In this document: positions 1,173 to 44,929 of the stretch, in pieces | How the letters are laid out: the number at the start of each line of letters is the position of its first letter | Numbering within the stretch: the stretch's first letter is position 1 | Source: Macrocystis pyrifera | Lineage: Eukaryota; Sar; Phaeophyceae; Laminariales; Laminariaceae | Assembly (NCBI GenBank): GCA_031763025.1 | Contig: JASSKH010000030.1 | Location: forward strand, 3,355,197-3,419,196 | DNA: 64,000 bases | Reading direction: 5' to 3' | Made by a program: the position numbers and the translations under genes | The notes under the pieces: generated by a model | Told to the model about the DNA's origin: nothing | The model's input: the letters and a program-made list of their open reading frames with translations, nothing else | Database searches by the model: none

Positions 1173-2994
1173 CTTCGTCGGCTGTGGTGGCGGCCTTCTG
1201 CTGCGGCTTGTGCTTCTGCGACGGCGGCGGCGGCGGCGGCTGCTGCTAAGCCCCACGCTACCTACTGCTACTATTTTTACTGCTCGTTGGTAGCGTAGGG
1301 CACCCAAGTAGTATCACTAGTAGAAGCAGTAGTGGCAGTAACCCGTTGTGTCGACGATGGACAGAAGGGGGGGCACTCGTTCGAAGGATTTGGAACCGAT
1401 GATGGGAGATAAGGAGAGGGGGAAGGGAAAGAACAAAAGAAGACAACTCTTTCTTTTTCCTGCCGCTCACCAAAGGCCGATAATTGCTTTTTAGGCCCCT
1501 GTGAGACAATCTACGCTGTCGGTGGACTTGCCGTGTCTTCTTGCTGCGCTGTTGGTGCGGTCGTTGTTCCTTTTGCTGTTCATGTGCAGCAGCTGTTGAT
1601 GCCTAACGACTTGGTGGCAGCTGTGTTGTTACTCCTTTCCCGTTCGCGTGCTTGACTCATTCGACCCCCGCGGTGCATATATATGGTAGACGTTTTGCGG
1701 GTGTCGGGAGGGTAGGTTGTTTTGGCTCTGCGCGGTGCCTTGAGACACATAGTAGACGTTTTGTTGCCGCATTTTTAGGAGGGATAGGCACCAAACCAGT
1801 AAATAGGAGCATGTGGTGTCTATACGTCCACCATGGCCGTTTCTACGGTGCTGACGTACAGTAAGTAGTTCACACCTCGTGTTTTTGCCTCTCTCTTGCC
1901 TGCCTGCCTGCCTGCCTGCCTGGTTACCATGTCGCCAGGGCAGAGGCGCTCACGCACTTGCTTATCTTGCTGTGTGCGCACGTACGCACGTACAAAGACA
2001 TGGGAGGGATCACTCGTGGCACGGGCCTTGTTTTTAATGTGTTCAGAAACGCACGCTTGTGCGTGCCTCCGGTGAGGAAGTATCTAACACACGTAAGTGA
2101 GCGGGATTGGCGACTCGACTTTTGATTGATTTTGAGCGAGGCTGGGCGGGCTTCTCTCTCTTGCCTTTTTGTTTTGTTTTGTTTTGTTTTCTCTTTTTGA
2201 AAAGCGTACGAAATCACGGGGCTAAAGCTGTTTCTATATTTTTGTAGATGGCTTGAAGCTCTAGCTGCTGCTGTAGGTAACAGGTCACGTCCGGATCACT
2301 GGAACAAAGCCCAGGAGACGTGGTGTAGAAGACAGCTTTGGCTAAGGAATCGTCGTACGTTTCGGTCCCACGCAAGAGAAGAACGCCTCCAGCGGGAAAA
2401 CAGCGCCTACTGGAACTCCCGGTCGGTGTACTGAAGGTCGATATGGGGTATAGGGTCGCCCGGGGATCAATCGGCATACATATGGGGAAGGTGGGGGAAA
2501 TATCGTGGAAAATTCTGGACATAATATCCACCCTCTGTTTTTTTTCCTTCACCTTTATATGTATGACATGATAACCTGGCGAATAGTTTTGGTTTAGTCT
2601 TTCGTTCTTGGTTTATTTTGCGTCTTCTCTGCATCGCGTGGTGCGGCTTTTTCTCATTTATTGCTTTCTTTCATTTTTTGCGTAGATTGTACAATCTAGA
2701 TCCTTTTCTTCTATGATTTATTTATTGATGTGTTTCTGTTTTGTATTTCTGTATTCTGTACTTTGTGTATTTTTATTTGTTTCATTTATTTCCTCTCTCT
2801 TCTATCGGTATCTGTATCTGGCTATATTTATATCGGGTGATCAAGTGCGAAAGTTCGTCTCGTTTGCTTAAATACGGTGCGCTTGTATTCAATCTCTTTC
2901 GCCGCTTGCTCTCTTTTAGCCTGGAGCTTGCCCTTTTTGTTTGGTAAAAGGTTGCAAGGGTGTGTTTTTTAGTGAGGGGGTAATTAAGATTTTA

Positions 2995-3230
2995 TACTCT
3001 GGGGATAGCCGGGTACATACCCGAGTATATAGGACCAAAATAACCAGGTTTGGTACCCGGGTACATACCCGGGTATGACCAAAACCATCAGGTTCGGTAC
3101 AAGGTTACATACCCGAGTATGACCAAAACAACCAGGTTCGGTCAAAACAACCAGGTTTGGTACCTGGGTACACACCCGTCTATGACCAAAACAACCAGGT
3201 TTGGTGCCCGGGTATTTACTCAGAGTAAAT
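2995..3230. repeat. Short tandem array with core ACCAGGTTTGGTACCCGGG
   Basis: Four to five degenerate units of roughly 45-60 bp repeat the elements GACCAAAACAACCAGGTT and GGTAC(C/A)CGGGTACATACCCG. Each unit contains a small palindrome (GTACCCGGGTAC). Reading frames across it simply repeat the unit and are not judged coding. Confidence 0.75.
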
Positions 3231-3467
3231 TTCCTGTATCCACTAAAGTAAACACACCCTTGACAAGGTTTCGAATTTTCGTCGTTTTTGTTTTGTTTTT
3301 TTTCTGTCGATATGCTTTTGTGCTAGGGGTAGTGGGTGGGTGGGTGGGTAGGCTGGTGGGTCGTGTATGCCCTACCAGGGTACGTGGTAGGGGCCCGCCT
3401 CTGTTTCCTACTCGGACGTAGCAGCAAGCATGACTGGAGAGTGAGGTATATATATGGTGCAACAGCT

Positions 3468-3725
3468 TTGTCAATAACATTTTGACCGTAAAATATCGGT
3501 CACCTTCCAAAAGAATGCCTGGTATTATTCGGTACGTGCTGCCCTTCGTTGCTGGGGCAATAATAACATTTCGGCCGTAAATTATCGGGCACTTACTGCC
3601 AAAATGATACCTGTGGTGTTGGTACGTGGTGCCGCTCTTTCTGCATGCAATCGATGAAAGACATTTTGACCGTATATTATCGGCCACAATGACAACCTGG
3701 TACTACGTGGTCCCTAGTCTGGCGG
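3468..3725. repeat. Three degenerate ~85 bp tandem units
   Basis: Three consecutive units share an ACATTT(T/C)(G)ACCGTA-AT(A)TTATCGG core near 3,478, 3,568 and 3,662. Each core is followed 30-50 bp later by a GGTA(C)GTG(C/G)TG-like motif. The array lies just 5' of the gypsy-type element and could be part of its leader or older debris. No LTR ends were recognised in it. Confidence 0.55.
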
Positions 3726-3859
3726 ACTTCGCAACCTTCGTCCGTGCTTGTAAAGAACGTGTTTCCATCGCACAAGGCACGGACCGGGTCTTCAAGTCGA
3801 GCGATGCCATGGTTGTTTAGATTGTACGCGGCGCTACGGGCAGCCAATACCCGTCACTT

Positions 3860-4065
3860 ATGCCCACGCTTTATCCGGGGCGCCTCATGACCACCCCGCA
3901 GCCCTTCTCCTCGGTTGTCGACATGTGGGCAGCATTCGAAGTGTCGGTGACCAACAAGACGCCGGCGATCAACGGGCACCGCTTCCACGCGACTTCCTCC
4001 GGCGGGTTTGTCACGTACTCCTCCTCTCCACCGACCCCAGCGCGGCAGCAAACTCCGCGTGACCC
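3860..4065 (+). pseudogene. Probable N-terminal Gag remnant
   Basis: An open frame from about 3,860 reads a moderately natural protein (motifs such as VVDMWAAFEVSV) before changing into serine/proline-rich text. The next frame, containing the Gag zinc knuckle, begins at 4,066, so a frameshift probably separates two parts of one Gag. Assignment rests only on its position upstream of the knuckle. No capsid-specific motif was recognised. Confidence 0.4.
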
Positions 4066-4596
4066 ATGCACCAACGCAAGGGGGTCTTCCTCCAACGCGT
4101 TCGTCATGAACGTGTAGCCGAACAGGGGCGCGACCCGTTCTGCGAGGACGAGGCGGACTGGCCGCTGCGGCATTGCGAGGAGGTATACATGGTCACGACC
4201 ACATTTAACCCTCAGACCCTGCCGCTCCTGACGAGCTCGGCCCGCCCCCAAGCCCTACGCGCTCACGGTGGACGTTGCCTCAACTGCAATGGTACGGACC
4301 ACGGTATGGAGACCTGCTTCGAGGGCTTCCTCAACACGTCCGGCATCTTAAACCCGGCACTCGGACAGTTTAACCACGGTGGACACGCCTACGGCCAGTG
4401 GCAACAGAGGATGCTCTCCTACCGCCGTGGGCAATACGAGCGCAACCTAGAGCGGAGCTCCAACCGCTACGACAACAACAGTCGAGGCAACCACAACAAC
4501 AACCGCAGCGGCAACTACAACAACAACCGCTCCAACCAGAACCACTACCGCAACTACCGCGGCAACAACGGGCGCTCCCGACAACTGGCGCCATAG
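4066..4596 (+). CDS. Gag C-terminal region with CCHC zinc knuckle
   Basis: This frame has 176 codons and ends in a stop at 4,594-4,596. Near residues 70-83 it carries CLNCNGTDHGMETC, an exact C-x2-C-x4-H-x4-C zinc knuckle, which binds RNA in retroelement nucleocapsids. A 60-residue tail very rich in Asn, Arg, Tyr and Gly follows (repeats of the type NNNRSGNYNNNRS), plausibly an RNA-binding disordered region. The first residues are probably not a genuine start; the frame more likely continues an upstream Gag through a frameshift. About 1 kb of proline/serine-rich sequence without a recognisable domain separates it from the NADAR frame. Confidence 0.75.
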   Translation: MHQRKGVFLQRVRHERVAEQGRDPFCEDEADWPLRHCEEVYMVTTTFNPQTLPLLTSSARPQALRAHGGRCLNCNGTDHGMETCFEGFLNTSGILNPALGQFNHGGHAYGQWQQRMLSYRRGQYERNLERSSNRYDNNSRGNHNNNRSGNYNNNRSNQNHYRNYRGNNGRSRQLAP

Positions 4597-5640
4597 CAAC
4601 GGCCGTTCATACGACAACGGCAACCGACAGTCGCCAGGGCAACAGTGCCAACAACAACGCATCGAGCCTGCCCCCTCGTCTTCAGCGGTGACGGTGCACA
4701 CCCCTGCGACCAACACTTCCGCACCTGCCGCCCCCGCGAACATGCGGATGGGCAGCAACAACTCGACCACCCACCCGAACCAACGGCAGCCGGGCACCTT
4801 CCGCACCAACTGACAAGCCGATGGTGGAGCAACTGCCGCATCTCCACCAACAGCATCTACTGCGAGCACCCGAGGCTCCCAGGACGCACGAGTAAATCAC
4901 GTGCACCACGCCTCCCCGACCCCTGCCCCCCCATGCCCCCCCCTACCCCAGCCCATTTCCCAGCCACTTGTTCAAGCACTGATCATCTTGCCCGAGTGAT
5001 TGCCTTGAGGTGTGGGCGGGTGGAGGCCAAGACGCCGAGCCCCACCCGGATGCTCCACTCGAAATCTTTCGGCAGTGAGAAACGCTGCTTGCCGACTATT
5101 GCCGAGACCCCAGACATTGCTACCCTGGGAGACGTCTCGACGATTACGGCTACCAGCGGTTCCGGTTCACACGAAACTACTGTTTGTTTTGTCTACCGGG
5201 CCATCGCCCCCTGAGCCTGCCTCAACCCCAAATTGGCCGCTCCATACGCGCTTGTCCCGGCATGCGCGCTTTTCTTGTGACAGCGTTGAACCCGCGAACG
5301 ACGGGCTTCCATCAGCTGCCACGGTGTTGACACCACCGCTGCCCCTAATCTCGAGGGACAGTCCCGTTTTAAATATGGAAGACTCGCGACGACCGTTGAC
5401 CAGGACATGCCCTGAGCCCCCTGGCCCGTCCTCCTCTCCTTCTTTGCGCAACGCGTGGACACGGACCCCAGGTGTGGCATGCCCTAGCGAGTGTTACCCT
5501 GTCCTCCAAACGTTGAAAGATAGGGCCCTTCAGGGTCGTCTCGCCCCGCGAATAAGCCCCGGCGTGGATCCCCCCCGTACCTCGGCTATGCGGAGCAATT
5601 CCCCCGCGAACACGAGGGTTCCGGATAGCACCGCTAGATC
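4597..5640 (+). other. Proline/serine-rich spacer between Gag and NADAR
   Basis: Several overlapping frames are open here, and all are rich in Pro, Ser, Thr and Arg. I recognise no domain. It may be a low-complexity linker of the polyprotein that has lost its frame. The composition matches the rest of the element, not the flanks. Confidence 0.5.
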
Positions 5641-6102
5641 GTGCTGACTTTACCCCTCTCGACGCCAGGCGGCGATAGGAATAATTATCGTCGCCCCCCA
5701 CCCCCAACACACAACACGCCATCGACAGCACACATCACGGAGGCCCCCTCATCTTTCCACTTCTTCTGGGACTCCTCTTCCGTCTTTTCGCAGTGGTACC
5801 TGTGCGACATCGAGCACGATGGCGCCACGTACAACTGCGCTGAGCAGATGATGGCGCAGAAGGCCGCGCTCTTCGGGGACACCACAACTGAGCGCCGTAT
5901 CAAAGAGACCCGCGACCCGGCCGACCAAAAAGCACTTGGGCGAACCGTTTCCGGCTTCGACGAACTGGTCTGGGAGCGACACCGCTATAACAGCGTCCTC
6001 AACATCAACTTCTCCAAGTTCCGCCAACACCCGGAGCTACGGCGGCAGCTAGCGGCAACGGGCGAGATGCACATCGCCGAGGCCAGCTGGGCAGGATACT
6101 GA
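5641..6102 (+). CDS. NADAR (YbiA/DUF1768) domain within the retrotransposon
   Basis: This uninterrupted frame begins after a stop near 5,640 and ends at TGA 6,100-6,102. The first 35 residues are a Pro/Thr-rich linker, so the domain proper starts near 5,745. It shows the NADAR pattern: an aromatic start FHFFWDSSSVFSQWY, the signature AEQMMAQKAALFGD with its conserved Glu (about 5,839-5,880), a P-ADQKALGR-TVSGFDELVW block, NFSKFRQHPELRRQL, then ATGE..IAEASW. NADAR enzymes act on ADP-ribose or NAD-derived N-glycosidic substrates. The usual terminal W-G-x-G stretch is not seen; the frame closes immediately after EASWAGY. It lies between Gag and protease in the same strand and base composition, so it is part of the element and not a neighbouring host gene. 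Its intactness beside a broken Pol is striking. Confidence 0.85.
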   Translation: MLTLPLSTPGGDRNNYRRPPPPTHNTPSTAHITEAPSSFHFFWDSSSVFSQWYLCDIEHDGATYNCAEQMMAQKAALFGDTTTERRIKETRDPADQKALGRTVSGFDELVWERHRYNSVLNINFSKFRQHPELRRQLAATGEMHIAEASWAGY

Positions 6103-6818
6103 TGGACATTCGAGAAAACCTCGGCGCCAATCGCTCCGCCCAACCTCCAATTCCTACCGATCTTCACGACCCGGAGCCAACACCCGCCTCCACCGACTCA
6201 ACCCGGGTCTTCGCCACCCGCGACGGCATCCACGAGACAAGCCCGACTCCTCCATGGCAACCGCCTACCTCACCACTTGGGCCACTTCTACCGGCGTCTA
6301 CCCCCGACGCCTACCCCAGCAGCCACTTCGTCCAAGTGTCCACCATCAACACCACAGCCCACAGCCACCTTCCTCCCCCGCCGATACCGGAACACGGACC
6401 ATGCCTTACACGCGGTATCATTACCGTCGACGACGCGTCGTTCACGACGAAGGTACTCGTGCACAGCGGCCCCGCCGCCACTGCGCGCTGCGAACTCGTG
6501 GCACTGCTCGATACCGGCTCGCCCCAGTCGTTTATCACCGCAACTGCGGTGGAACAACTGAAGGCCCCCCAGGCAGCTACCGATGCGTGTGAACGGCACA
6601 GTTCCCCCCGTTCATGGGGAGGTTTCGGCACTTCAGCCGCCCTCTCCACCTCCGTTTACATCCGCTTAAGCATCCAGTTTATGCGCCTTCAGACCCCCAC
6701 CGCTGCCCTAGCAGTATGGGCCTGCGTAGTTCCTGCAGGAACCATGCAGCACCCCATCCTCCTGGGACGAGACAGCTGGATGCGCTTCGAGCAACGCTCG
6801 TATACCACGCTCCAGTAA
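6102..6818 (+). CDS. Retroviral-type aspartic protease region
   Basis: The frame opens with ATG at 6,102-6,104, overlapping the NADAR stop in TGATG, and ends at a stop at 6,816-6,818. The first ~110 residues are a Pro/Thr-rich linker. Then VALLDTGSPQSFIT (about 6,500-6,540) carries the catalytic D-T-G-S motif. HPILLGRDSWMRF near the C-terminus matches the hydrophobic-ILGRD flap-closing element of retropepsins. The domain length of about 115 residues is normal. In retroelements this enzyme cleaves the Gag-Pol precursor. The ATG may be coincidental, and translation may have depended on fusion or frameshifting with the upstream frame. Confidence 0.8.
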   Translation: MDIRENLGANRSAQPPIPTDLHDPEPTPASTDSTRVFATRDGIHETSPTPPWQPPTSPLGPLLPASTPDAYPSSHFVQVSTINTTAHSHLPPPPIPEHGPCLTRGIITVDDASFTTKVLVHSGPAATARCELVALLDTGSPQSFITATAVEQLKAPQAATDACERHSSPRSWGGFGTSAALSTSVYIRLSIQFMRLQTPTAALAVWACVVPAGTMQHPILLGRDSWMRFEQRSYTTLQ

Positions 6819-7373: not shown

Positions 7374-8440
7374 CGGGAAAGATTCCTCGACCTCTGGCAA
7401 CGCCTGCCATTACACCTACGCAACGTCAACTTCGACCCTCACGGTTCTGGATGGACCCCATCGGTGATCAACAACCTGGGCGACGTCCTCTGCGAATTCC
7501 AGGACGTCTTCTCCACCTCGAAGACCGACTTCGGCTCGTGCTCGCTTATGCCGTTCAAGATAACCGTACCCTCGGACAGCGCACCGGTCACTTCCCGCCC
7601 CTACAGGATCAACCCCATCCTCGCCAAGAAGGCCGACGCCGTACTTGACCAGTACCTGGCCGCCGGCCTGATCCAGCATTCCACGTCGCCATACTCCAGC
7701 TCTACGATCGCCATCCCCAGGATGGACGTGTCCGCATCACAATCAACTACAAGAAGCTCAACGCCACCAGCTCCCTCGGACAACTCCCCATCCCCCGCGT
7801 CGACGAAGTCCCCGACTCCTTGGGCAAAGGTCGCATCTTTTCTCTCTTCGACCTGGTCTCCTCGTTCTACCAAATCACCATCGACGAAGACACCATCACT
7901 TTGACAGCGTTTTGCGCCCCCAGCCGGCCATTCGAGTAGCATGTCATGCCGCAAGGCAGCAGCGCCTCCCCCGGATGGTTCGCCAAGGTCATTAACGAGG
8001 TCATCAAAGGCCTGGAACGCGTAGCCGTGTACCTCGACGACATCATCGTCTTCGACCCCGACCCCATCGAAAACATCGCCAACATCAGAGCCCTCTTCGG
8101 ACCGGAAGCACCACCTCAAACTTTCCCCGCCACGGCCAAAATTGGCGCCACCACCGCCGATTTCCTGGGACACACCATCTCCGCTGGCGGTTACAGTCCC
8201 AACTCCGACAAGGTCGCTGCCCTCACCAGAATGCCCATGCCGACCAACAAGAAGCAAGTGCGCTCGCTCCTTGGAGGCATCAACTACTACCGCAAGTTCC
8301 TGCCGAACCTTTCCCGTCTGCGCCCCATCAACGCCCTACTCAAGCAAGACGCCACGTTCGACTTCACCCCTGCCATGGAAACCACCGTCCGCGCCATCCT
8401 ACAAGAACTTGCCGAACCGCCTATCCTCGTCTACCCCGAC
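7374..8440 (+). pseudogene. Reverse transcriptase domain, frameshifted
   Basis: RT motifs appear in order: fingers (TSRPYRINPILAKKADAVL, LAAGLIQHSTSPYSS), then NYKKLN and QLPIPRVDEV in a different frame, then a TAG at about 7,937 immediately before VMPQGSSASPGWF, then the catalytic VYLDDIIVF (about 8,023-8,050). Thumb and connection follow (FLGHTISAGGY, VRSLLGGINYYRKFLPNLS). At least one frame change near 7,720 and one stop interrupt it. The NYKKLN and LPIPRVD segments match the fragment at 14.6-15.6 kb closely, which makes the correct family frame easy to see. The enzyme makes cDNA from element RNA; this copy is inactive as it stands. Confidence 0.85.
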
Positions 8441-9163
8441 TGGGACGCCGTCGCCGACAACTCCCGCCCCTTCCGCCTCTACTGCGACGCGAGCATCGAC
8501 AGCTTCGGAGCGACCCTTGAGCAATAACAACCCGACGGCTCAGTCCGCCCCATCCTCTTCATCAGCCGCGCCACTCTCGACTCAGAACGTTCATGGACAC
8601 CCCTCGACCTCGAGGCTGGGAGCATCGTGTGGGCGATCAAACGCCTCCGCGGACATTTATGGTCCACCCGCTTCCAGATCTACTCGGACCACAAGGCGCT
8701 CGAGAACATCGCCAAGGTCGGCGAACACAACGCCCGTATCCGGCGCTGGCTCGAGTTCTTTTCGGCGTATACCTACACTCTGGAGTACCGGAAGGGCACG
8801 ACCAACGGCGACGCCGACCTCCTCTCCCGGCTCCCCCAACCAGCCACCGACGCCGACCGCACCGGACGCATCCGCCTCACTGGCCCCGACACCATCGGCA
8901 TCTACCTCATCCGCCCTTGCGACTTCGCGCTGAACGACCCTCCCGCCCCGGGTATCGGCTTGGGTGGGCTCGTATCCCCCCCTTCAAGACCCATCCCAAC
9001 CATCCAGTCGCTCCCATTCACCGACGACGACTTCTGCGACTTCTGCCTATTGGGAGCACGTATGGAGCACCCTCCCTTTTTCCCGCAACCCATACCTTCG
9101 TCGAGCCTTTTGCGACCCGCGACTCCACCACCAAACGGCTTGCCACCAAGAATGCCGCCGTGA
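8441..9163 (+). pseudogene. RNase H domain (interrupted) and downstream linker
   Basis: RNase H of the Ty3/gypsy type is recognisable from FRLYCDASIDSFGATLEQ, where YCDAS holds the first catalytic Asp. It continues through ISRATLDSERSWTPLDLEA (catalytic Glu region), SDHKALENIA and NGDADLLSRLP. A TAA at 8,525-8,527 interrupts it. At that position the related fragment at 14.9 kb keeps a glutamate/glutamine codon, so the stop is a secondary mutation. After about 8,850 the frame continues into a proline-rich region without known domains. Confidence 0.83.
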
Positions 9164-9892: not shown

Positions 9893-10680
9893 GTGCCAGT
9901 GTTAATGCGCCCCTGGGTGCTGAACACATGCCACGCCACCACCTCTTTACACCTGGGAGTCACCCGAACTGTCCGCATGCTGGCACGTTTCTTTTGGTGG
10001 ATTGGCATGGACGCTTCCGGCGGCTGGTGGATCCGGCGCTGCCTCCAATGCCAGGCGCGGAAGACCTCCCGGCACACCATTCGTTGGCCCATTCTTTCTC
10101 TTCCTTTGCCCTACGGGCCTGCCATCACCGTCAGCGTCGACTACTTTGGACCCCTGCCGCTCACACCGCGCGGCAACATTCGCATCCTCCTCTTCACCGA
10201 CCGCTTTAGCTGCCGATATGTTGGCCGTTTCAGCGGCGCAGTTTACGGCCGCCGGCACCGCCGACATCTGCCTGAACGAGTACATCCCTCTCTGGGGGTG
10301 CCCGGTTACACTCCTCTCTGACAACGGACTACAGTTTACCTCCAAGCTTGCGAACATCGTCTACGACCGCCTTGGTATCCACAAGGTCAACACCAGCTCC
10401 TACCACCCCTGCACCAACGGTGGCGTCGAGCGCGTCAAACATGTGTTGGCCCAAATGTTTTCTATGGTCGGCAACGAACAGCAGACCGACTTGGACGTGC
10501 TGCTTTGACACATATCGCCGGCCTACAACAACCCTGTGAACGCCGCTACAGGGCTTGCGCCTAACGAAACCCACATGGGCTGCCTTACTCGCCTTCCGCT
10601 CTCGGTCTCTGAACCCGCCAACATCGGCGGTCACCAAAGCTTGGACCGCGATCACCTGGTCTACATCAACCTCGCCACCT
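9893..10680 (+). pseudogene. Integrase, zinc-binding and catalytic core, frameshifted
   Basis: The N-terminal H-H-C-C zinc module is present: HATTSLHLGVTRTVRML followed by WWIRRCLQCQARK, about 9,930-10,060. The core follows with VDYFGPLPL (first Asp, about 10,140), SDNGLQFTS (second Asp, about 10,318) and NGGVERVK (catalytic Glu, about 10,420). The frame changes near 10,205, after FTDRFS. A TGA at about 10,506-10,508 ends the core, then the sequence resumes as NAATGLAPNETHMG. Integrase inserts element cDNA into chromosomes. The catalytic triad is still readable, but the frame is not continuous. Confidence 0.83.
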
Positions 10681-11834
10681 ACCGACAACGACGCGCCTAC
10701 TCCCTCGTCCGCGCACCGACTCACCGTCTCGAGTCTCCAGCGCCGCAACGCACCCATCATGGCCGCCCTCCTAGCATCTCCCCCCGTCGCCGTAGGCGGC
10801 TGGGTTTGGGTCTACAACTCCGCCTCAACCATCCACCAAGGCGTCAAAAAGGGCACCGACGCAACCGTCCTCAAGACGAAGCTTTCCCTGAAGTGGAATG
10901 GCCCCTTCAAAGTCCTCGCCGTAGGACCGACGCCCGCCTCAAGCACCCCCGACAATCGCCCCCTTCACGACAAGCTACTTTTCCTCGGCCTTCCATCCGA
11001 CCTTCCGGGACGGGATTCCAAGCCACGCGTCTCCGTCCAAAGATGCAAACCTTGCCGGACTCCCGACGACACCAGCGACATCCCCAAGCATCTGCCCGCG
11101 GACCTCACTACATACGTGCTCACAGTATCTGCCGCTGAGTCCCCACCGTACCACGTCACCGTCGACGACGTTACTCCTCCACCGGCACGCCTCGAGGTCG
11201 AGCAGATCACTGGCCATCAACTCGTGCGCGGCCGTGGCGGGGTCATCGCCGTTCTGTACGAGACTCACTGGGCTGGACTCTCAGCCCCTCTTGGGAACGC
11301 GAGCTGAACCTTCAACACTTCCGGTGCCACATCCTACTCTACTGGTTACGATCACCAACCCAGCACCGCCAGACGAACCGCCTCTACCGCCAGATGCGCA
11401 TAGGTGCCGCTCACCGCGAACTGGCACGATCTCAAGGACAAATCTTCCTCGCCCCCGGCTACGCCTTGGTCTCCCGCAGCCTTTGGCTCCACAACTTCAG
11501 CACCACCATCCTCCCCTCCAGAGTACACATATGGTACAAGGCGCGCGATGCCCTTTGGTGGCCGGGCAAGGTCGCTCACCGCTCACCCCCTGACGCCTCT
11601 TCGGGAACTCCGCCGGAGCCTTCACCGGGAAGCTCCTACATCGTCCGGTTTCTGGACGACCCCGGCCTGATCAAGATCGACCTCCAGCCCGCCCGCTACA
11701 CTACAGCACGGAACGCCGTGTACGGATCGTGGTGTCTTCAACGCCATGGGAATGGGAGCCTAGCACGCGGGGTGCTGCGGAACTCTGATGTGTCACGCGG
11801 AGCCCCGACCGTTTCCACTCCCCCCCCTGGTTAG
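10681..11834 (+). pseudogene. Integrase C-terminal region with chromodomain and Tudor/PWWP-like module
   Basis: The frame from 10,555 reads a typical integrase C-terminal barrel (VGGWVWVYNSAS, KLSLKWNGPFKVLAVG) and then a chromodomain start, LEVEQITGHQLVRGRGG. After a frame change at about 11,285-11,300 the chromodomain finishes (SWERELNLQHFRCHILLYW). The same frame then stays open to the TAG at 11,832-11,834. That tail contains VHIWYKARDALWWPGKV and YIVRFLDDPGLIKIDLQ, the pattern of a Tudor/PWWP-like SH3 barrel. Chromodomains direct chromovirus integration to modified histones; the second module may add another chromatin contact. The chromodomain call is solid; the Tudor/PWWP call is by pattern only. 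Confidence 0.7.
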
Positions 11835-14117: not shown

Positions 14118-14222
14118 TTACGGGGGACTATAGTAAATAGGACCAAATATTGTTAGTAAAAATAGGTAAATATATAGGTTTTTGTGTGTACCGTAGGTCT
14201 TATTTACTATGGTCCCCCGTAG
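14118..14222. mobile_element. MITE family A, copy 1 (105 bp)
   Basis: Terminal inverted repeats start TTACGGGGGACTATAGTAAA and end with the near-complement ...TTTACTATGGTCCCCCGTAG. The interior (TAGGTTTTTGTGTGTACC) is inverted relative to copies 2-4. The flanking TA duplication seen in the other copies is not intact here. Confidence 0.85.
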
Positions 14223-14575
14223 TAGTATCGTGTCAAGATCAAGCATGCGGGACACTTTGTATCCCTGGACAGGTTTGCCTATTAAGTCGGTACTTGTTGG
14301 TACTCACGTGTGATGTTTGCTTAGAGATAGAAGAAGAGCAGTTTTATTCCTTCCGTGCACGCGGAGACTGGGACCAAGCTCGTGCGTCTCTGGAAAACTC
14401 CTGGTTTCCCACCTAAGATGCGCCTTCCAAGTACTACAAATACGTTCCCAGTGCCTGACCCCATGTAATTACCGGGCTTTCAACCTCATACAAAGCAGTA
14501 TCATAACACTAGCCCACTCTGATGAGCCATATATGCAGAATTATGGGAAATTCATGGAAACCCCGATTCCACAAA

Positions 14576-15648
14576 CTAGAACATGAGTCGAAGATGCGGC
14601 TCCTCAAAACCCACTCCCACAACTCTGAACGGCAAGGCAACGAAGCCGGCAAAGTAAGTAAAAATAATGAAGGGAAGACCTAGCCTTAAGGGGCAGGAAA
14701 AAATCGTCAGTGAAAGCCATCGCCATGCCGCCCGCACGGGGGGGGGAGGCGAGGAAGATGCATGGAAAAGCGCGTGGCAGCCGAATTTCAGTTCGATAAT
14801 TAAATATTCGAAACTCGTGCCCCACAGGCAAATTCGGAGTCGTTTGATGGCCCAGACAATGCTGCCAGCTTCCAGGTCCAACGGTGTCCAGTACCTCTCG
14901 GAATCGAGGGTAGAGCGGCTGATATCAGCTATGGGCCGTACCGAGCCGTCCGGTTGTTCTTGTTCGAGCGCGGCACCAAAACCGTCGATACAGGCGTCGC
15001 AGTACACGTGGAAGAGGCGGGAGCCGTCGGCTACGGCGTCCAAGTCAGGGAAGACCAAAATCGGTGGGGCAGCGAGGGTGTCCCCCTCCTACTCCGCTCC
15101 CGCCATAGCACTGCTGCCTTGGGGCATGGCGAGCCACTCATAGAGGCCCGTGAGAGTGCAAAACACCGTGAGAGGAGCGGTGTCCTTGTGCGCGGTAATC
15201 TGGTGGAACGAGGAGACCAAATCGGAGAGAGGGAAAACACCCGTCCCTTCCCCAGGGAGTCGAGGACTTGGTCCACGCGAGGAATAGGCAGCTGGCTGAG
15301 GTTGCTGATCTGGTTGAGTTTCTTGTAGTTCACGGTGAGTCGAACGCCTCCAGACTTCTTCGGGATGACCACCAACGGGCTCGAGTACCGAGAGGTCGAG
15401 TGCTGGATCAGGCCTGCCGCTAGGTACTGATCCCAGGTGGCCTCCACTTCCTTGGCCAGGATGGGGTTGATGCGGTGCGGCCTGGACGTGACAGGAGCGC
15501 TTCCTTCCGGGACCGAAATCACGAAAGGCATCAACGGGAAGGAACCAAAATCAGACTTGGACTTCGAGAAAACGTCAGGAAATTCGCAGAGAAACGTCCC
15601 CCAGCTATTCGATGGCCTCAGGGGTCCAGCCCGTGCCGTGAAGGTCAA
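14576..15648 (-). pseudogene. Internally deleted gypsy-type RT/RNase H fragment
   Basis: Read on the minus strand from 15,648, RT fingers are clear (TSRPHRINPILAKEVEA, LAAGLIQHSTSRYSSPL, GGVRLTVNYKKLNQISN, LPIPRVDQVLDSLGKGR). They are followed in another frame by the MPQGSSA segment. The sequence then jumps at about 15,080-15,100 directly to PPILVFPDLDAVADGS and the RNase H start YCDACIDGFGAALEQEQPDG. The palm with the YLDD catalytic site is therefore missing. The 5' and 3' parts are also absent: similarity ends near 14,800 within RNase H. It belongs to the same family as the element at 3.9-11.8 kb and shows what several of that element's mutated codons originally were. Confidence 0.85.
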
Positions 15649-16886: not shown

Positions 16887-17643
<757 letters not shown>

Positions 17644-17689
17644 TCATTTTTATTCTTAGGGAGGACAAATTATCTCACATGTCCGAAAT

Positions 17690-20259: not shown

Positions 20260-23200
20260 TTATCGCTCCACGACCACAAGACGATCAGTCGGACGCCCAA
20301 AGTTCCCCTCCTGTTCTTTTACCTCGCTCACCTCGAACTCTGGGAGGCCTCCACCCTTGCCGGCGGAGAAGGCACCTGAGAATCCCATCGCCGACAAGTT
20401 GAGGCTCCCTTTTTTCTTCCTGCCCTTGCGTCCGCCCGCGCCCCCTAACACCACCACGCCCGAACCTGCGGCCGCCCTAGATCCCGACTGGTCTATCCTC
20501 ACCCCGGCTTTCATCGCCGCCGCTCCTGCCTCGGCGCCCAGAAACGTCCCCAAGGCACGTTTCGTCTTGTCTGGCCGCGGGAGGTCACTAGGCCCACCGG
20601 CACCGAGCGGGTTGGTTTTCGTCGTCGTCGTTGTTGTTGCTGTTGTCGGGTTGTCGGTGTCTGCTGGCGAGCGTCCAGGGAAATTTCTCCCGGAGAGCGG
20701 AGGAGACGGGTCGCCGGATACTTGCCGTTTGCGCCGTGAGGAGGTCGGGTGCATCTCCATCTTCTCGAGCTTCGTCTCTTTGCGAGATTTGGCGTCGACA
20801 CTACCACGTGTACCACTACTGCCCTTACTCCTGCGGGTACTGCCGCTGCTGCTACTACTACTGTCGTCGTTGCCATGTCCGTTGTGGTTTCGGGGGGGGG
20901 CGCGACTGCGTTCGGGCTTCGCGTCGCTTTTGGTCTCATTCGTGTTTTTTCCTGGCAGCCCCAGGTTTTCCAAAGCGGTGGCGGTTCTTCCTTTGTCAGC
21001 CGACGTTTCGGGATGCTCCCGGTATGATACATGCGCGATGGTGCTTTTTTTGAACGCTGAGCGTTTCTTGCTGACTCTACCACCTCTACCGCTACCACTA
21101 CCGCCTCCATCACCACCACCACTGCCACTGCCATCACCATTGCGACCGCCATCGCCACGGCCACCGCTACCGTGAGCAGCTACGACAGGCATGGGGTTTC
21201 CGATAGCACCCCCGCCAAGGGGCGGGGATACCCGACTACTACTGCTAGCCGGTGTCGGGCCGTCCGGGTCAGCCGCTGACTCCAGGAGGGCGCAAACTTT
21301 GCGGCGGAGACGTTCCGCAGCGGCGGCTGTGGTGGTGGAGGCACTCACTCCCCCCTCAGTCACTGCCTCGAAACAGGGCAGCAAGGTGCGGGCAATAGCG
21401 GCCAAGCTGACGTCCTCGGAGGCGGCCAACCAGCGAGCGTGCCGCGCTACCGCGTCGAAGAGCTGGAGTCTGCCGGGGAGGCCTTGGCGTCGGTGCTGCG
21501 TGCGCACCTTAGCGGCGGTAACGATACCTGACAGCGATTCCGCGGGTACTATGTCCGACGCCTTAGAAGCAATTAAATCCAGCACCGCCCCGCAGAGGGT
21601 GCCCAGATCGAACTTTTCGAGCTCATTGTGAATATCATGAGCTACCGCTCCCGCTGCCGCCGCGCCGTTTGCCGAGGTTGCCTGCGCGGCCGCCGCCTGC
21701 CGGTCTACGCGGTTCAGTGCGTCGGCCGAGCTATAACCGTCAAGAATGAGGGCAGGCGCGGACGACGACGATGATGTTCCCGCGTCTCGAGCCGCCCCCA
21801 AGGATGTCGTAGCCAGTCTCTCGATTTGCAGCGTCAGGGAAGCGATAGCCCTTGCAGTCGTCGCCAGGGAGCGGGAGGGAACAAGATTATCGGTGGTGTG
21901 TTGATCTTCAGAACCTTTCTCTGAACAGGGTTTCCGGCCGCTCGCGCCATGGCCGCTGCCGCCGCCGCCACCGTTGTCATTAGCGTTTTCTAAATTGACA
22001 GCAGTGTCTTTCGTGAATCCTATTTTCGTGTGGTTTGCCTCGCCGCCTATACGCCCAGCACTCGAAGACGCTTGGGGGTGGCCTTGCCCTCTGGCTTCGT
22101 GGCCGTCGCTGTACGATTCTCCCCCTTCCGCCGTCACCGTCGCTTCCTGGTGTCCCCAACCCGCCCCCGACACTGCCTCCACCACTCCTGCTATTGCCTG
22201 ACTTTCCCCCCTCTCCTTTGTTTTTCCTCGGTTTCGTACTGGCGACGATACCGCTCGATCGAAGGACTCTTGAGACAGCTGGGACGATGAAAATGATGAA
22301 AACGACCCGCCCACTTTGCTCCGACTGAGCGATGCGGCCGTCGGGGGGGGGCGTGGCAAGTCGAGCTCGACGAGCGATTGGCTCTTTTTTTCGGCCACGT
22401 GCAGGGCGTTCCCGCGATCACAGGCGGGCGGCGTCACCGATCGATGCGGCGATATTAGCGGTGGATTTATATTTGAACGGTTTTCCCGAATTTTTTTAAT
22501 CGACGGTTTTGACGCCCCCGCCACGTACGAGTATTCCTCCGGACTTTGGTCGAGCCCGTTTCGTGTGGAGGATGATGTATCGTGGCTCCCGCTTGATATT
22601 GCCTGTACGTTCTTTTGTTGATCTTCCTGCCCTCCCTTCTCCTGCCGGCATGCCGCACGATTCGTTACGCCAATCGAGGCTTCTACTGTTTTCGGTTGTG
22701 CGCCACGTTGCTGCTGCTGCTGTTGCTGCTGCTGCAAAGGACCGACACGGCGACTCCTTTCTCGAGCTTCCATCCCCTTGTCGAGCAGCCGCTCGTCACG
22801 TCTGCTAGAAAACCGCAGCCCCGCGGCACTCATCTCCTTTTCACCTCGCCCGCGACCCTTGCTGCCATCGGCATACGTATTGGCAGGCTCTTCCACACAC
22901 GCATCTCGGCTGTCCACACCACCACCGGATTGGCTGTAGCACCCGTCTCTGTAGCCGCCGTTGTTGTCCCCATCGTGTCGATCGGTATGCCGCTGCTGGC
23001 GGAGGGCTCCTGCCAAGGCGTCGCACCGAGCGGCGCGCCCGGCCTCGTTGGCCGCCTCGACAACGGACAGGAAAGCCTTATCATTGCGGATCGATAAAAG
23101 TTTCCGCTGTGCTCTTCTCAGAGCCAGCTCATTGCGCTCGTGTGTCTGCGTTTGTTTATCACACCATGTGCACGGTTCGGTTTTGGAAGAGGGACAATAG

Positions 23201-26200
23201 GCCGAGCAAAAACAAAAGAAGACGAGGCAGCGCAGTTTGAGGCGGCCGTGCGCAGAGGGTGGGGTTTGATGAAGAGAGAGAAAGCTTCCTTTTTTTTCCG
23301 CGATGTTGTCAACTATTGGAGGTAAATGGTGCGCGACATGGAGCTGTATGCGATATTTATCTGCTACGTACGCATTTGACATTACGCGGACAACTTGTTG
23401 TCAACGTTGGGGATGAGTTTTGCCCCTTTCTGACGACGTCAAACATGAACTGTATGTAGCGAACATTGTGGTTGCTCCAAAAGTTGAATTCCGCGTGTGT
23501 CTAGTAATATCATTTTTTACATTTTCTGTGGTTGCCAGCAATCCGTGGGGGCAGCGATCACTGGTTTCCCGTCAGGGCCTTGCCGACTCGCAGACATGCC
23601 TCAGACGAAACTTCGCATCAAAAACCCATATTCTTCTCGTTGCCGACGGCACAGCATATCTGGGGACGAAATATCGTCAGTTTTTTTGCGGGCAATGATC
23701 GGTAGACAGTTGCCCACCGAATCACCTTCGCAGCGGCAAGCTGGCGTCGCCGTCCTTCAATCGCCTCTTTTAGAGCCTTCTCCTGCTCGAAAATATCCCT
23801 CGCCGCCTTTCGTCGGTGCTCCGTCGTGAACCTCTCCTCTTCAAGAGCGCGCAGCTCCGTTGCTTTTCGGTGCAGCTGTTCTTCCTACGCACACAGGTAA
23901 AAACGTAAGCAGACATCATGATCGGGAAACACGTTCGTCCAATTCCGACTGCCCGTCAGATAAATTAGGTGCATTGCTACCTCTTGATATTTGGAATGGG
24001 TTGCCCACGGGATATAAATCGGCCACCCCGCCTTCAACAAAGACTGCAATGACTGCCGGGCTTATCCCGCGCGCTTGCGCTCAGCGAAAGTTTCCCAAGC
24101 AATACCGACATATTCCGCACACCTAAAAGAGGTAGGGACTCAATCTCAGTCACGGGGAGGTAGAAAACCACGAGGAAAAGGCGGCTGCTGCTGCATAGAG
24201 ACTTACTCTCAGTCACGGGGAGGTAGAAACCACGATGAAAAAAGCTGCTGCTACTGCTGTGCCGTGTGGTGCATACCGTACAGCTCAGCAGATCTAAAAC
24301 GTTGCGGAGAGGCGGTGCAGTGTTCCAAGCAAAAAAGTGATACATAAGGCTGCTTCGCCCAGAAAGCCCAGTGGCGAACTCGCGTGAATTTAGCCTCTAC
24401 TCTTACGTAGGTCTGACGACTCTCCATAGCATACAACTCGTGTGCGGGGGAGAGAGTTGGGTAGCAGGTACTCGGTTGGACAGATTTAGATGCCGAAATA
24501 CATGCATTTATACTGAGCAGAATATTTCAGTTTTCCAACAGGTACTGCCTGCGCGAAAATGACACCGGACTTGTCGATCCGCGAAGTAACGTGCGAACTT
24601 CACACAAGAAAAAAAGCGCGCACCGCAGTTTTGTCAGTCGCAGGTGCATTCACGAATACATAGCCGTGATTTTTATGCGCCGGTTGAAATCAACTATCAA
24701 TATTGACTGACTGTACGTACTCATACGATGTATTGCAAGTACATGGTTTCTATTTTACTTGCAATGCTTTCGCGGAGTGCGCGCGTGAAGGACGAATTCT
24801 AGCCCCGAGCAAACGACTCGGCAGCCCATTGCCCATTCGTACCTGCCATGCCGGGTATAGCTTGTCGGCGACGGACAGAAAACGCTCTGTCTGGCACGAC
24901 AGTCTCTTCCGACTCGCGGATACATCGTAGCTCGCCCTTTCGCCGAAGAAAAGCTCGTTCCTCTTCGTACGTAGGTACCGGTACCAGGTAGGACATGTTC
25001 ATATTTTCCACCAGGTCGATTTTAGAACGGCGGTTTGGTCGGTCACGCGGTGCGGGTAGGGTGGAAGCATGTTGCTAGCAGCAGATGATGCGCTTTAGTT
25101 GTTGATCAAATGGCGTGTCGAAGGCCGCCTAGTAGTAACATTCAGGGAACAATGGCACCAATGATATAGCTGGACTTGACGGATGTCTCTGTGTACTCGT
25201 ACGTAGCGATTATCGCGTTGTTAACCTACCGCAGTATATCATGCCAACATGCATGGTGCCGACTACAACTTTTTTTGCACAGGAAGCACGGGAAGGGTGA
25301 CACCAGCGCAGTATACATGTATGTGTCATGACGTATGTTGACGATCGACGGCGCAAATGGACGACGTCGAACTTTTGTCTACAGTAGTAGGACGAAACAA
25401 AACCCAGCTACGAAAGTAAGCGTGACTCAAGCAAAATGTCCCGAGCAGGTAGCCTGCACAAGTAATAACAGCGCCTACGGGTGACGTATAGTTCCCAACC
25501 GATCAATTACGGTACTCTGTGCGGGTGGCGTAGAGCCTCGCCGTGATACGGTAATTGCCGTACAGGAATATACGAAGGAAAAAGTAAGAGTATGTGACTC
25601 GGATAGAGTTCCGACTTATGATGGTGCGGGAACAGAACTGGAGGGCACACGCCACAGAGTCCCTGAGACCATAGATACAACAACAGCAGCCGTTCCTCGA
25701 TCCTGTTTGTAGGTATTCTTACCTCCCGCAACCGCTCGAAAAGGTTCTGGTTCCGTCTCCGAGCGACACCGCACTGTGCAGCGAATGCTTCTCGAACACG
25801 CCCGAGGCGACGCGTGTGGATGACGCTGAATTCCTAAGCAGGTACGAAAACGTTGAACTCGCCAATTTGGGTGTGGGTATGTTTCCGGCGTATGGATATA
25901 CCTTCAAGGGAACGCAGCTTACCGCCTGAAACGCGCACAATCTCGTACTGCCTGCTCACAGACGCTGTACAGGTATTGAGCACAAGCGACAAGCGACATC
26001 TCTAGTGCCGCCGTACGTACTTACATGTATCAGATATGTGCTCGAGCGGTCACAATAGCCAACAAGGTTTGAAAAACGTACACATACGCTACTGTAGGAG
26101 TAGTATCTTCTGCGGACTATCTCCGCCTTTCTGACAACGAACGGCCGATAGCATTGCCCTACCACCAAACACACCACGCTGCAGTACGTGCCCACAAGTA

Positions 26201-33203: not shown

Positions 33204-34126
33204 CAGGGCTGTTCGCGGGTCGGGTATGGCCGATTTTTTTCACATGCCTTGACCTGCAGCCTGACTCGACCCGAACCGCGAAATTTTGGAAACGTCCTGA
33301 CCCGACCCGACCCGACCCGGTCCGTGAGATTTGAAAACATCTTGACCCGGCCCGACCTGACCCGTGAGATTTTGAGCACCTCCTGATCCGACCCGACCCG
33401 ACTCGACCCAACCCGACAGATTTCGATTGACCCGTGAGAGACGGGTTATGTCGTGAGTCGTTCACGTCGATCCGCGAGACCATTTATCTCGCTCGACCCG
33501 CGGGTTCGACCTCCGCGGATCCGGCCCGTGGGTCGACACTTCAGAAACACATTAAATATCCATCTTTGAACCCCGCAATGATGCGTGGCCTTCCTGTAGT
33601 GGGTGTGGATGGATGCGGAAGTGCGTGTGTAGATTTAGCAGTGCTTCAATGTTTGCATGCTATCCCAAACGAGTACTATTGAGCAATGATGCGAGAGAAG
33701 CCTTTGGGCAGAAAGAGGGAAGCGTTTATAGTGTCGGATCCGCGGGTTGGATGCGCGGGGCCGACACGCGAGTCAGCAGCTAAAAAGTCGCGGGTCGTGC
33801 CGGCCCTAACCGCGAGTGACCCGTTTCTCGCGGGTCATGACCTGACCCGACCCGTGCGCTTTTCATCACCTCTTGACCCGACCTGACCCGACCCGTGAGA
33901 TTTGAAATCTTATTGACCAGACCCGACGCGACCCGACCCGTAACGTTTAAAAGAGTCTTGACCCGATCTGACCCGACTCGCGTGATTTTTGAAAACCTCT
34001 GGACCCTCCCCGACTCGACCCGTGAGATTTTGAACACTTCTTTACCCGACCCGACCCGACCCGGCCCGTTTTTGAACACCTCCTGACCCGACCCGCGTGT
34101 CGGGTCGTGACTCGCGAACAACCCTG
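33204..34126. mobile_element. hAT-like GGGTC-repeat element, copy 2 (923 bp)
   Basis: The ends are CAGGGCTGTTCGCGGGTC and the complement of CAGGGTTGTTCGCGAGTC, matching the family at 29.8-30.6 kb. The arms are again GGGTC/GACCC repeats with TTTGAAAAC-type spacers. The unique core (about 33,545-33,735, with GTGGATGGATG) is inverted relative to copy 1 (CATCCATCCATACCCAC). The flanking 8-mers CATATGCT and CATGTCAC match only partly, so the target duplication has decayed or the ends are slightly off. Confidence 0.7.
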
Positions 34127-34275
34127 CATGTCACAGCGGCATAGCACAAGCAACCTTGACTTCGTAAGATCCTTACATTTGTCCACGGCTGCAGGTCAGC
34201 AGTATTTAACTTTTAGCATACCAGTATACCAGTACCCAGTACACGTCGGCGTTACCAGTACCTCAGAATACAATA

Positions 34276-34389
34276 TTACGGGGGTCCATAGTTAATAGGA
34301 CCTATGGTACACATAAAAACCTACCATGGTATATATTTCCCTATTTTTTACTAAAAATATTTGGTCCTATTCACTATAGACCCCCGTAA
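34276..34389. mobile_element. MITE family A, copy 2 (114 bp)
   Basis: Terminal inverted repeats TTACGGGGGTCCATAGT... and ...CCCCCGTAA, flanked by TA on both sides (34,274-34,275 and 34,390-34,391). The interior reads CACATAAAAACCTACC in the same orientation as copies 3 and 4. Confidence 0.88.
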
Positions 34390-35538
34390 TAGTACTGCAG
34401 AAAATGCCATGCCCGAATTACTGGATATATAGGCCCAGTACGAACCTCACAGCAGCCGTACGCGCTACTGCGGTATGTATGTATAATATGTACTCGCACC
34501 GCATACTTGGTATATGATTCACTAGTGATATGCTGCAATACCAGCGAAGTACTCGTAAGACAAATTATGTTGTTACGTCACCCAACCGCACCCACCCACC
34601 CATCCACCTACCGGTCCCACCCACCCACCCACCCACCCATCCTCCCACCATATACAGCAATACAGTACGTACGGCAGCAAGGTAGTCCCTGGTGCCTATC
34701 GTAATGGGGCCTCCATGTTTTACAATCCCCCGCCATCCCGCGTACCAAGCAACCCCTCGTGGGAGGGCATCTTTCCAAGCTCCCCGCTTGCTGAGTTTGG
34801 CTGCGGCGCTCCTTTCGGTGGGACACCAAAGGCTGCCGTGTGGGGCGGGCATGGCACTGACTGTGGCGCGGTCGCGGGAGGTCGTGTGGCGGCCGTGAGA
34901 GCCGGTGTTCCGCGGGGCGGACTGAAACCGAGTAAATTTTGAATATCCAGTACAACACCACCGCATAAGAGTATTAAGTACCAGGTAATAAGGGTACCTG
35001 TGGTACCACGTACCTATATTCATAACAGCAGTACCTCACAGCAACGCGTCACGCCTGAAAAACGAAATGCTGCGTACTGCTGTACTGAAAACTGGAGGTA
35101 TGTACCATACGTACATACTGCGGTGTTACTAATGATGCTGTTGCTGCTGCTGTACTACGGCGGTACAATTCTGAAGGGGTTAAGAGCACCGTGCAGTGGT
35201 ATATACTACAAAGGAGTTGCTTGGTTACGAATTTTCCTGCTCGACGCGCCTGGCCGGTCGCAAGAAACAACTCGGCTACGACGGTGAGGCGTACCGCAGC
35301 TCCACCCTACGATAATATTTTTCGTACGACGGGTTTCAACTCTTACGTATGCCTATAGCGCCGTCGGGATATATTCGCGAGTTTTCCAACCTAAAGATGA
35401 TGAGACTGCGATGATGATCTCGTGGTTGTCTAAGGCTCATTAATTGTCTGCATCCCGAACAATCAATCGTCTTGAGGCATTTCGTAACCCTCGTATTATA
35501 TATGCACGAACCTTTTAACTTTATCGTTCCGCGCACAG

Positions 35539-38500: not shown

Positions 38501-40379
38501 TCGCGACAGGAACAGCAATGCGGCCACAGGCGACGGGTCTCAATCCCTCCTTGAAACGGCCAGAGGTTCACGCCGCTTGAATTCCCGACGAGCCGTATCC
38601 ACGCTGAGGCTCACGCGCTCATCGATCGAGGAGAAGGTTGATGACGACGTTGAAGATGTGGCGCCGTGCAACGATAGTTCGGCAGCAACGAGAAGAGTGG
38701 TGGAAGCACCGAGCCCAGTGGAGGTAGCGGCCTCCTCTCGGTGGACCATGTCGGAGGAGCATAATTTTTCAAGCGGTGTGGTCAATTCACCAGGCACCAC
38801 CAACCGTACTAGGCCGACCGCGGCAGTTCCCACGAGCTCGTCTGTTTCTGATAAGCCTGTTGCGGCGGTTGGACAGGCGACGCGCCTCCCCGCGGCACCA
38901 CAGTGGGGGCCATGGATAAGCCGCCGCCCTAGCTCTAGTATTGAGCTGGCAGGGCGTCTACCTTGGCAATCGCCAGCAGAGTCGTTTAACGCCCGCACTG
39001 GCGAGTTAGATCGTGTGAGATCGGCGCGTCAGCGGCGGGTACTGCGTGACAACGGCAACGCCCGACTGTTTCGATCCGCAGCCGCCACCGCAAGCACTTC
39101 TCGTCGGCAAGGAACCATGCGAGACAGATTGGCGACGCGCGGAGCTTCTACGGCTACATCATCGGATAATGATTCTGCTTTGACCAGACAGAGTGCCAGG
39201 ACCGGCTGTTCATCTGGCGGAGGCAACGTAGGGCGCGCAGATGGGAAGGATGAGGTACCGGCGGTGTGCGATGGTGGCGGTGAAGGTGAAGGCAGCGAAA
39301 ACCCGCGAAACGCTGGTGTTTTGGAGACGACGAGGCGGGGTGAGGACTCGTCGAGGTTACTTGGGCAAAGTGTCGTGGGCCAGGGAATTGCTCACCGCAT
39401 GGTGGGGCGAAGGCAGGATGAAAAGACGCGCTTTGGCAGCGACGCTGGTGAGATAGGAAACCGGCGGAACCAGGAAGGGGAGGAGCAGGAAGAGGAGTTT
39501 GAATGGCGTGTTGAGCCTGCCCCATCCCGTGACAAACGCCCCCGGGCGGCAGACCCTGAGGAAGAAGAGGGAGAAGAGGATGAGGAAGACGAATTTGACT
39601 GCTTCATGACGGGTGCGTCATTGCCAACGAAAGAGCACCAGGCAAAAGATAAAAGTGAAGGAGGAACAGAGGAAGGAAGCACAGGAGAGGGCTTGATTTC
39701 CTCGCGGAGTCCTGCTCGGGCATATAGCAGTAGCCAATTGGTCGAGAATCGGCACCGGCAACTAGCTGATTCCGCTGACGCTAGGGGTTCCAGTGGTTTT
39801 GGTGGCGGAAGGAATGTCCGTCGGCGCTTGACTACTTTGGGCGTTGCGGAAATGAAGTTTGTCTCGTCGAGCTCGCCGCCCCCCTCCCCTGCGTCCTCGT
39901 CGCCTTCTCGATCGAGCCACAGAAGGTTCGGGTTGAGAGGGCCTCTTCAATGCGGCATGGAAACGGAGGAGGTAGGGCTGAAAGACCGCTTGCTTCGACA
40001 CCGTCAGGGCTGTTCTCGTACGGGCAGGGGCAACACACAGAAAGAAGACCCTCCAGTTTTTGCGAACGCAGACGCGTTGTCTGAAAGTGACAATGATGAA
40101 TCCTCCTCTGTTGGACGCGTAGAAGGTGACACACGGGGAGCAGCGGGGAAAGGAGTTTTATTTGATAGCGAAGATGACGAGTCCTCCTCCGTGGGACGCG
40201 TAGGAAGTGAAACTCGGGGGGCAGCGAGGAAGGGACAGACTGGTTGCGATTGGCGGCGGGCACAGAGCAGCTCCCAGCATGGGCGTGGGCGTAGCTCGAA
40301 CGTACCCTCGGCCCATGTGTCGTCGCATTATTCGGTGGGGTTCTTCGACAAGTTCCGGTTCGCAGGTGCTCGTACCTAA
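35539..40379 (+). CDS. PHRF1/TOPORS-like RING-finger protein, spliced
   Basis: Four exons join in compatible phase: 35,539-35,753 (acceptor GCACAG|, donor GTGGAG|GTGAAT), 37,015-37,194 (GTCAG|; GCGGAG|GTATGG), 37,401-37,770 (TTTTCAG|; GAAGCTG|GTGAGG) and 38,374-40,379 (TTGTGCAG|, ending in a stop). The first carries most of a C3HC4 RING: IC, then CAHAHCFTCVMTW and CPVCKERF, spaced as in the PHRF1/TOPORS group. GGETVE joins VKDRDPMADF across the first junction, as the family pattern predicts. The first zinc cysteine and the start codon must lie in an unrecognised upstream exon. The rest (about 850 residues) is acidic and Arg/Ser-rich with DSDDDE and EEEEGEEDEEDE clusters and no PHD finger visible. 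Such proteins are usually nuclear E3 ubiquitin (or SUMO) ligases. The tail repeats a unit: SDNDESSSVGRVEGDTRGAA then SEDDESSSVGRVGSETRGAA. Confidence 0.72.
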
Positions 40380-44745: not shown

Positions 44746-44929
44746 TTATCCAAGGTGTGGTCTATTCCGAGAATCGAACTCGGGTTTCAAGTTAAGATAC
44801 TTGCACTGGCGCGTAGTGAGTACATAGCAACTAATTTTGTATCACTTCAGAGTCCACATTTCAACACGTCCCCTTAATGGAAGTTAGCCGCTAGAAAAAC
44901 ATTCAAGACGTTGGAACTTGCTGACACTA

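Follow-up and report, generated by a model that had tools for sequence, protein, structure and literature searches.

The stretch of DNA analysed here (the window: 64,000 nucleotides of the Macrocystis pyrifera genome) carries the decayed copy of an LTR retrotransposon of Ty3/Gypsy type, in which a YbiA-type NADAR domain lies on the N-terminal side of Pol, immediately ahead of the protease (Table 1); of this description we are practically certain. The expected Ty3/Gypsy order of Gag knuckle, protease, reverse transcriptase (RT), RNase H, and integrase is present, with several of the Pfam scores below cut-off and with broken frames. No long direct repeat that could represent paired LTRs frames the window copy, nor was one found in six stretches of 9.8-9.9 kb from the same genome, which are possibly shorter than whole elements. 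No second NADAR was found in the 64-kb window. A second Gypsy fragment (RT/RNase H) lies at 14576-15648 (-) and shares ∼70-77% DNA identity with the main element.

Table 1. Parts of the NADAR-carrying element, with window positions and the evidence for each.
Feature	Position	Strand	Evidence
Gag-type zinc knuckle, CX2CX4HX4C (CLNCNGTDHGMETC)	4276..4317	+	Sequence reading
Linker before NADAR	5415..5654	+	45% identity over 80 positions to database protein P0007, where it is continuous into NADAR
NADAR (YbiA-type), C-terminally truncated	5752..6087	+	PF08719, TIGR02464; FHFFWDS begins at 5755
NADAR C-terminal helix remnant in another frame (LGRILMDIREN)	6087..6119	+	Sequence reading; tblastn of P0009 residues 106-160 to 6078-6248
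Linker and aspartic protease (LLDTGSPQSFI at 6504-6536)	6102..6818	+	PF13650 E 0.016, PF12384 E 0.037, both below cut-off
Reverse transcriptase and start of RNase H, broken frames	7446..8527	+	PF00078 E 9e-5 and PF17919 E 3e-5 in 7946-8527, both below cut-off; homologous pieces in other copies
End of RNase H	8627..8900	+	PF17917 E 9e-9, above cut-off, in frame 8627-9163
Integrase core	10002..10508	+	PF00665 E 0.014, below cut-off; 88-91% identical piece in L154-L156
Chromodomain-like stretch (LEVEQITGHQLVRG...THWAGL), frame broken afterwards	11152..11283	+	By eye
PWWP-like C-terminal domain	11394..11834	+	PF00855 E 1.9e-4, 22.3 bits against a cut-off of 25.6

Other repeats also occur in the window. 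A MITE-like element, ∼110 bases long and bounded by terminal inverted repeats (ACGGGGGACTATAGTAAAT / ATTTACTATGGTCCCCCGT in the first copy), is present four times (14118-14224, 34274-34396, 44924-45038, and 57912-58025; 77-94% pairwise identity), and a direct repeat of ∼1.97 kb is found at 53678-55636 and 60393-62325 (95% identical), one end of which is overlapped by an RT open reading frame at 55383-56174 (-) (RVT_1, E 4e-27). An AAT microsatellite array of ∼760 bases occupies 16888-17647. ARAGORN called a tRNA-Val(CAC) at 33427-33526, inside a repeated stretch and with no Rfam match at the gathering score, and this call is perhaps a repeat-derived false hit. Two further long open frames, 20260-23382 (-) with 1040 codons and 37980-40379 (+) with 799 codons, have no Pfam match at E 0.01.

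The initial annotation had placed a NADAR-type domain in the forward frame 5641-6102, and profile searches bear this out: PF08719 matched ORF residues 41-149 with 100.1 bits (cut-off 35.1; E 2.1e-28), and the three NADAR motifs quoted at the time are present in the window. The best NCBIfam model, TIGR02464 (riboflavin biosynthesis intermediates N-glycosidase), scored 90 bits against a cut-off of 73.7, and PDB matches were obtained to 8bau (a NADAR protein; E 2e-9) and 2b3w (YbiA; E 0.006). The domain had also been described as intact, which it is not. The match covers profile positions 1-123 of 163, whereas other copies in the genome match up to position 161-163. About 28 residues that are present in relatives (PYDLVWGIG...RWRGRNL in P0009) are deleted after EAS in the window copy, and its C-terminal helix follows directly after the deletion in a shifted frame; the limits of the domain are thus revised from ORF 5641-6102 to about 5752-6087 plus the remnant at 6087-6119. 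Compared with most relatives, the AEQ...K active-site helix lacks one residue (AEQMMAQK versus AEQMMMAQK), a form that among the database copies is common to the window and P0005.

Functional positions were taken from the P. nicotianae protein as described in PMC11543638 (E43, K50, K75, E125, and D130 in its numbering), the first four being mapped through the PDB comparison and D130 by counting on. The window NADAR does not have the complete set: the D130 position and the WGIG block are gone, and the spacing from E43 to K50 is one residue short. At the E125 position (in EAS) it carries glutamate, rather than D or H, which assigns it to the YbiA subfamily. Because the deletion shifts the frame and the relatives read through this point, the ORF stop at 6102 is a decay product and not a natural end; the overlap of stop and start there was considered as a translation signal and rejected, since relatives have a continuous frame and the stop stems from the deletion. 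Because the Gag knuckle, the NADAR, and the protease do not share a frame or have stops between them, the window copy has no readable polyprotein. It is a relic of a NADAR-carrying retrotransposon, and, truncated as it is, it could hardly carry out the hydrolysis proposed below.

The position assigned to the domain, between a Gag-type zinc knuckle and an aspartic protease on the same strand, was confirmed; the protease is weak by Pfam, and the 6102-6818 segment is 88.8% identical over 240 positions to P0020 (68% to P0018). A similar knuckle (CLNCNGTDHSMKTC) lies ∼1.48 kb upstream of the NADAR in loci L119 and L121 of the same genome. Toward the other end of the element, the chromodomain-like stretch yielded no Pfam match; it is 95% identical in L154-L156, three longer stretches of the genome, and 80% identical in a fourth, L159. 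Because 11394-11834 does not reach the PF00855 cut-off, we label it PWWP-like only; 150 of 150 scored matches to it in its own genome, itself included, are 90-100% identical. The element may thus be one with two chromatin-reader-like domains.

Nine close database relatives of the window NADAR (58-73% identity over the aligned part) were found, and the profile search adds more. In three database ORFs (P0018, P0020, and P0022), NADAR, linker, and protease share a single frame, which supports the earlier proposal of a NADAR carried inside a polyprotein, although the window copy itself, with its broken frames, does not encode a readable one. Over 80 NADAR residues, P0020 and the window are 85% identical. 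P0018 and P0020 share 71% identity in NADAR, 53% in the linker, and 82% in the protease, and P0022 represents a distant family (49%, 32-39%, and 61-67%, respectively, against the other two); in these comparisons NADAR diverges more slowly than the linker and faster than the protease. P0019 links the NADAR with this PWWP-like domain: it has a piece of NADAR at its N-terminus and, C-terminally, a portion that resembles window 11394-11834. The named neighbours of the NADAR in sequence searches were mostly bacteria and phages (36-50% identity), both collections searched being prokaryotic or phage by design. A search for long NADAR polyproteins gave one match, P0016, a database protein of 1053 residues with PARG, ADP-ribosylglycohydrolase, NADAR, and Macro domains, for which no retroelement domain is listed.

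When the window's own genome (537,376,219 bases in 223 contigs) was searched for NADAR, 1264 first-look candidates were obtained, and all of the 150 that were scored exceeded the Pfam cut-off; 24 of these 150, counted from the listing, have a stop inside the match, and the window's own copy is not among them. A second query, window 6102-6815 (covering the linker and protease and the final residues of NADAR), produced 3158 first-look candidates, of which 150 were scored and the best 30 loci cut out (L124-L153, L124 being the window's own copy). NADAR lay directly upstream in 30 of these best 30 of 150, in some as a partial domain or in two frames; being the loci closest to the window, they belong mostly to its family (family B). 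Among the other 29 (L125-L153), 22 have an ungapped full-length NADAR, two of them with a stop. Conversely, all 30 loci cut out by NADAR score have a protease match, counted on either strand. By nearest family, the 60 loci comprise 24 of family A and 36 of family B, with the two families ∼51% identical in NADAR, although not all 60 are distinct: L122 coincides with L151 and L123 with L152, and a run of 1,800 bases is identical between L110 and L111 and likewise between L122 and L123.

These counts bear on whether the domain belongs to the element at all. The truncation and frame shift of the window copy are what one might see if a host exon had been caught once or if the assembly were faulty. 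However, with all 150 scored NADAR matches in the genome above cut-off, all 30 linker-protease loci that were cut out accompanied by NADAR, and the domain present on independent database contigs, we rejected this reading, the chance of which we consider negligible. The initial annotation had named element copies without NADAR as the finding that would speak against it, and none was seen among the 30 linker-protease loci; since families ∼50% apart both carry the domain, it is part of the element, as had been supposed.

A match to the RT core is absent from 19 of the 30 linker-protease loci, in which the RT entry piece leads directly into the end of RNase H, and present in 11, the window included. 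Because L154-L156, which likewise have no RT core match, keep the integrase, chromodomain-like, and PWWP-like parts, we conclude that an RT-deleted, NADAR-keeping subfamily has been amplified. The three longer stretches of family A, which may end too early, gave no match to the PWWP-like domain, and only L159 among them matched the chromodomain-like stretch. NADAR is in the same open frame as the protease in all six longer stretches (three per family; the presence of long open frames was one basis for selecting them), and in five of the six the RT lies outside this frame. The exception is L157, whose NADAR-protease frame (3704-6244; 847 codons) extends into the beginning of RT and, over 257 bases, overlaps with a frame upstream of it (2644-3960) that is in a different register. 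The upstream frame contains no knuckle pattern; to judge from the overlap, the arrangement resembles a Gag/Pol frameshift layout with the upstream frame as putative Gag.

Active-site positions are well kept in both families. In family A, K50 is found in 23 of 24 loci and E43, K75, E125, and D130 in 24 of 24 each; in family B, the counts are 33 of 36 for E43 (two G, one not covered), 34 for K50 (one R, one not covered), 34 for K75 (one P, one not covered), 35 for E125 (one not covered), and 34 for D130 (two not covered). Half of the 60 loci were picked by NADAR score and are thus biased toward conservation, while the other 30 were not, and because much of the NADAR element family is recent (∼98% DNA identity), this conservation partly mirrors youth.

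A dN/dS comparison, which had been suggested as a check and which we ran against protease and linker, does not discriminate between the domains. For NADAR, dN/dS was 0.53 (0.38-0.77) in 20 of the 29 copies L125-L153, seven having been left out for want of an ungapped full-length match and two for a stop, and it rose to 0.84 (0.40-0.98) once the two stop-bearing copies were restored. The protease gave 0.43-0.47 among recent copies, and the linker 0.36 (0.28-0.48) in 29 of 29 copies, at loci chosen by likeness in the same linker-protease piece. In family A, the NADAR value was 0.41 (0.28-0.53; 14 stop-free of 18 full-length copies, chosen by NADAR score). No ratio between families A and B is given because dS is saturated (2.9). 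As proof of selection on NADAR, dN/dS was thus set aside as weak, NADAR not being separated from the linker within the family; because the linker value lies below that of NADAR, the most these ratios show is that the recent copies were derived from coding elements.

In a phylogeny of 151 NADARs (LG+C20+F+G4 by PMSF; bootstrap not converged), the 15 retroelement rows sampled, namely the window, six genomic loci (three from family A and three from family B), and eight database proteins, formed one clade (90/82; recovered in 86% of 200 bootstrap trees) amid proteins from bacteria, phages, and metagenomes. Of 80 genome-contig loci, 24 entered the tree, as did 4 of 13 viral loci; P0016 was excluded from it, together with nine retroelement-like sequences that are fragments or near copies (P0001, P0004, P0006-P0008, P0019, P0021, P0026, and P0038). 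The four viral-contig NADARs and a limpet protein (P0033) fall outside the retroelement clade. One capture is the simplest reading of this topology, and a single capture from a bacterial or phage YbiA-like gene, kept since, is in our view supported but not proven. The element NADAR may also be of host origin.

For intact members of the family, a role can be sketched. Pol would be made at a low level as a Gag-Pol fusion through frameshifting, so that NADAR would be packaged into the particle along with RT and integrase. Inside the particle, either as part of Pol or after release by the protease, it would hydrolyse ADP-ribose on guanine bases of the element's RNA or cDNA, and a putative host ADP-ribosyltransferase could therefore not block reverse transcription or integration. 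Taken alone, this mechanism is possible, with a chance that we put somewhat below even; the whole explanation, decayed NADAR-carrying copy and packaged hydrolase together, comes close to an even chance and just misses it. The broader proposal, in which one ancient YbiA-type capture would have served as a packaged eraser of nucleic-acid ADP-ribosylation, with its active site kept through deep divergence and also in the amplified RT-less subfamily, we advance only tentatively. If true, the packaged-eraser reading implies that this lineage has a host defence against retroelements based on ADP-ribosylation, and that retroelements counter such a defence. Defence by nucleic-acid ADP-ribosylation is known for phages and bacteria (DarTG); to our knowledge, its countering has been shown for no eukaryotic retrotransposon. 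In vitro tests of this are feasible, given how many young copies have kept the active-site positions.

Erasure of ADP-ribose by the element NADAR would agree with published biochemistry, in which NADARs including E. coli YbiA and an oomycete YbiA-type NADAR are reported to remove guanine-linked ADP-ribose from DNA or RNA and a myxobacterial YbiA to act as antitoxin to a neighbouring ART (PMC11543638, PMC11125620, PMC11833690). However, because NADARs outside DarT operons are reported to protect poorly against DarT1 in cells, guanine-linked ADP-ribose may not be their main substrate in vivo. The domain could instead have host targets, namely low-molecular derivatives of ADP-ribose or antiviral signals derived from NAD, rather than the element's nucleic acid. 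PMC9503650 proposes such a role for phage NADARs, and macromolecular targets for the NADARs of eukaryotic RNA viruses; for the element, the position in Pol beside the protease suggests packaging with the genome, and we consider host-side action unlikely.

TIGR02464, which exceeds its cut-off of 73.7 in the window and also in P0005 (109.7 bits), would fit an N-glycosidase for damaged nucleotides or flavin intermediates that cleans the nucleotide pool of the RT. The name of this model, however, mirrors the annotation of the wider YbiA family, and we know of no link between reverse transcription and flavin intermediates, so that this role seems improbable. It is more doubtful still that NADAR is a non-catalytic nucleic-acid-binding or folding module of Pol, given that the catalytic positions are kept in two families only ∼51% identical, although published work suggests nucleic-acid binding for the E. 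coli C7 NADAR. Of the roles considered, we thus favour hydrolysis of ADP-ribose on the element's own RNA or cDNA, at the strength stated above.

The initial annotation implied that a NADAR-bearing retroelement was novel, but such elements had already been described in Ectocarpus (PMC12477816; Genome Biol 2025, 29 Sep 2025), where a YbiA-family NADAR is reported at the N-terminus of Pol in a Gypsy lineage; NADAR-Gypsy elements as such are published, and the window family is a further example. Among the papers listed for NADAR or YbiA together with retrotransposons, transposable elements, or brown algae, none of the other titles points to NADAR retroelements. According to PMC12477816, Gypsy-12_Ec32 has a putative C-terminal chromodomain, its chromodomain Gypsy lineages are placed outside the chromoviruses, and NADAR matches outside Ectocarpus are almost exclusively bacterial. 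A chromovirus affiliation of the window element, as the initial annotation implied, is only a possibility. Going by this published description, the window family is like the Ectocarpus elements in having NADAR at the N-terminal side of Pol, and differs in its PWWP-like domain after the chromodomain-like stretch (PWWP is unmentioned in the main text of PMC12477816) and in its RT-deleted subfamily. The same paper reports a YbiA-family NADAR in ORF1 of a Tx1 LINE of the oyster Crassostrea gigas, which is also a retroelement but a non-LTR one, with a NADAR that is called divergent. Certain animal RNA viruses likewise carry NADAR in a replication polyprotein (PMC9503650) and differ in being positive-strand RNA viruses. 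The NADARs of DarT1-NADAR modules belong to the same superfamily and have positions equivalent to E43, K50, and K75, but they are of the BC4488 subfamily, with D where YbiA has glutamate (PMC11543638). Against these systems, what is possibly new in the window family is its large amplification, an RT-less subfamily that keeps NADAR, and the PWWP-like C-terminal domain.
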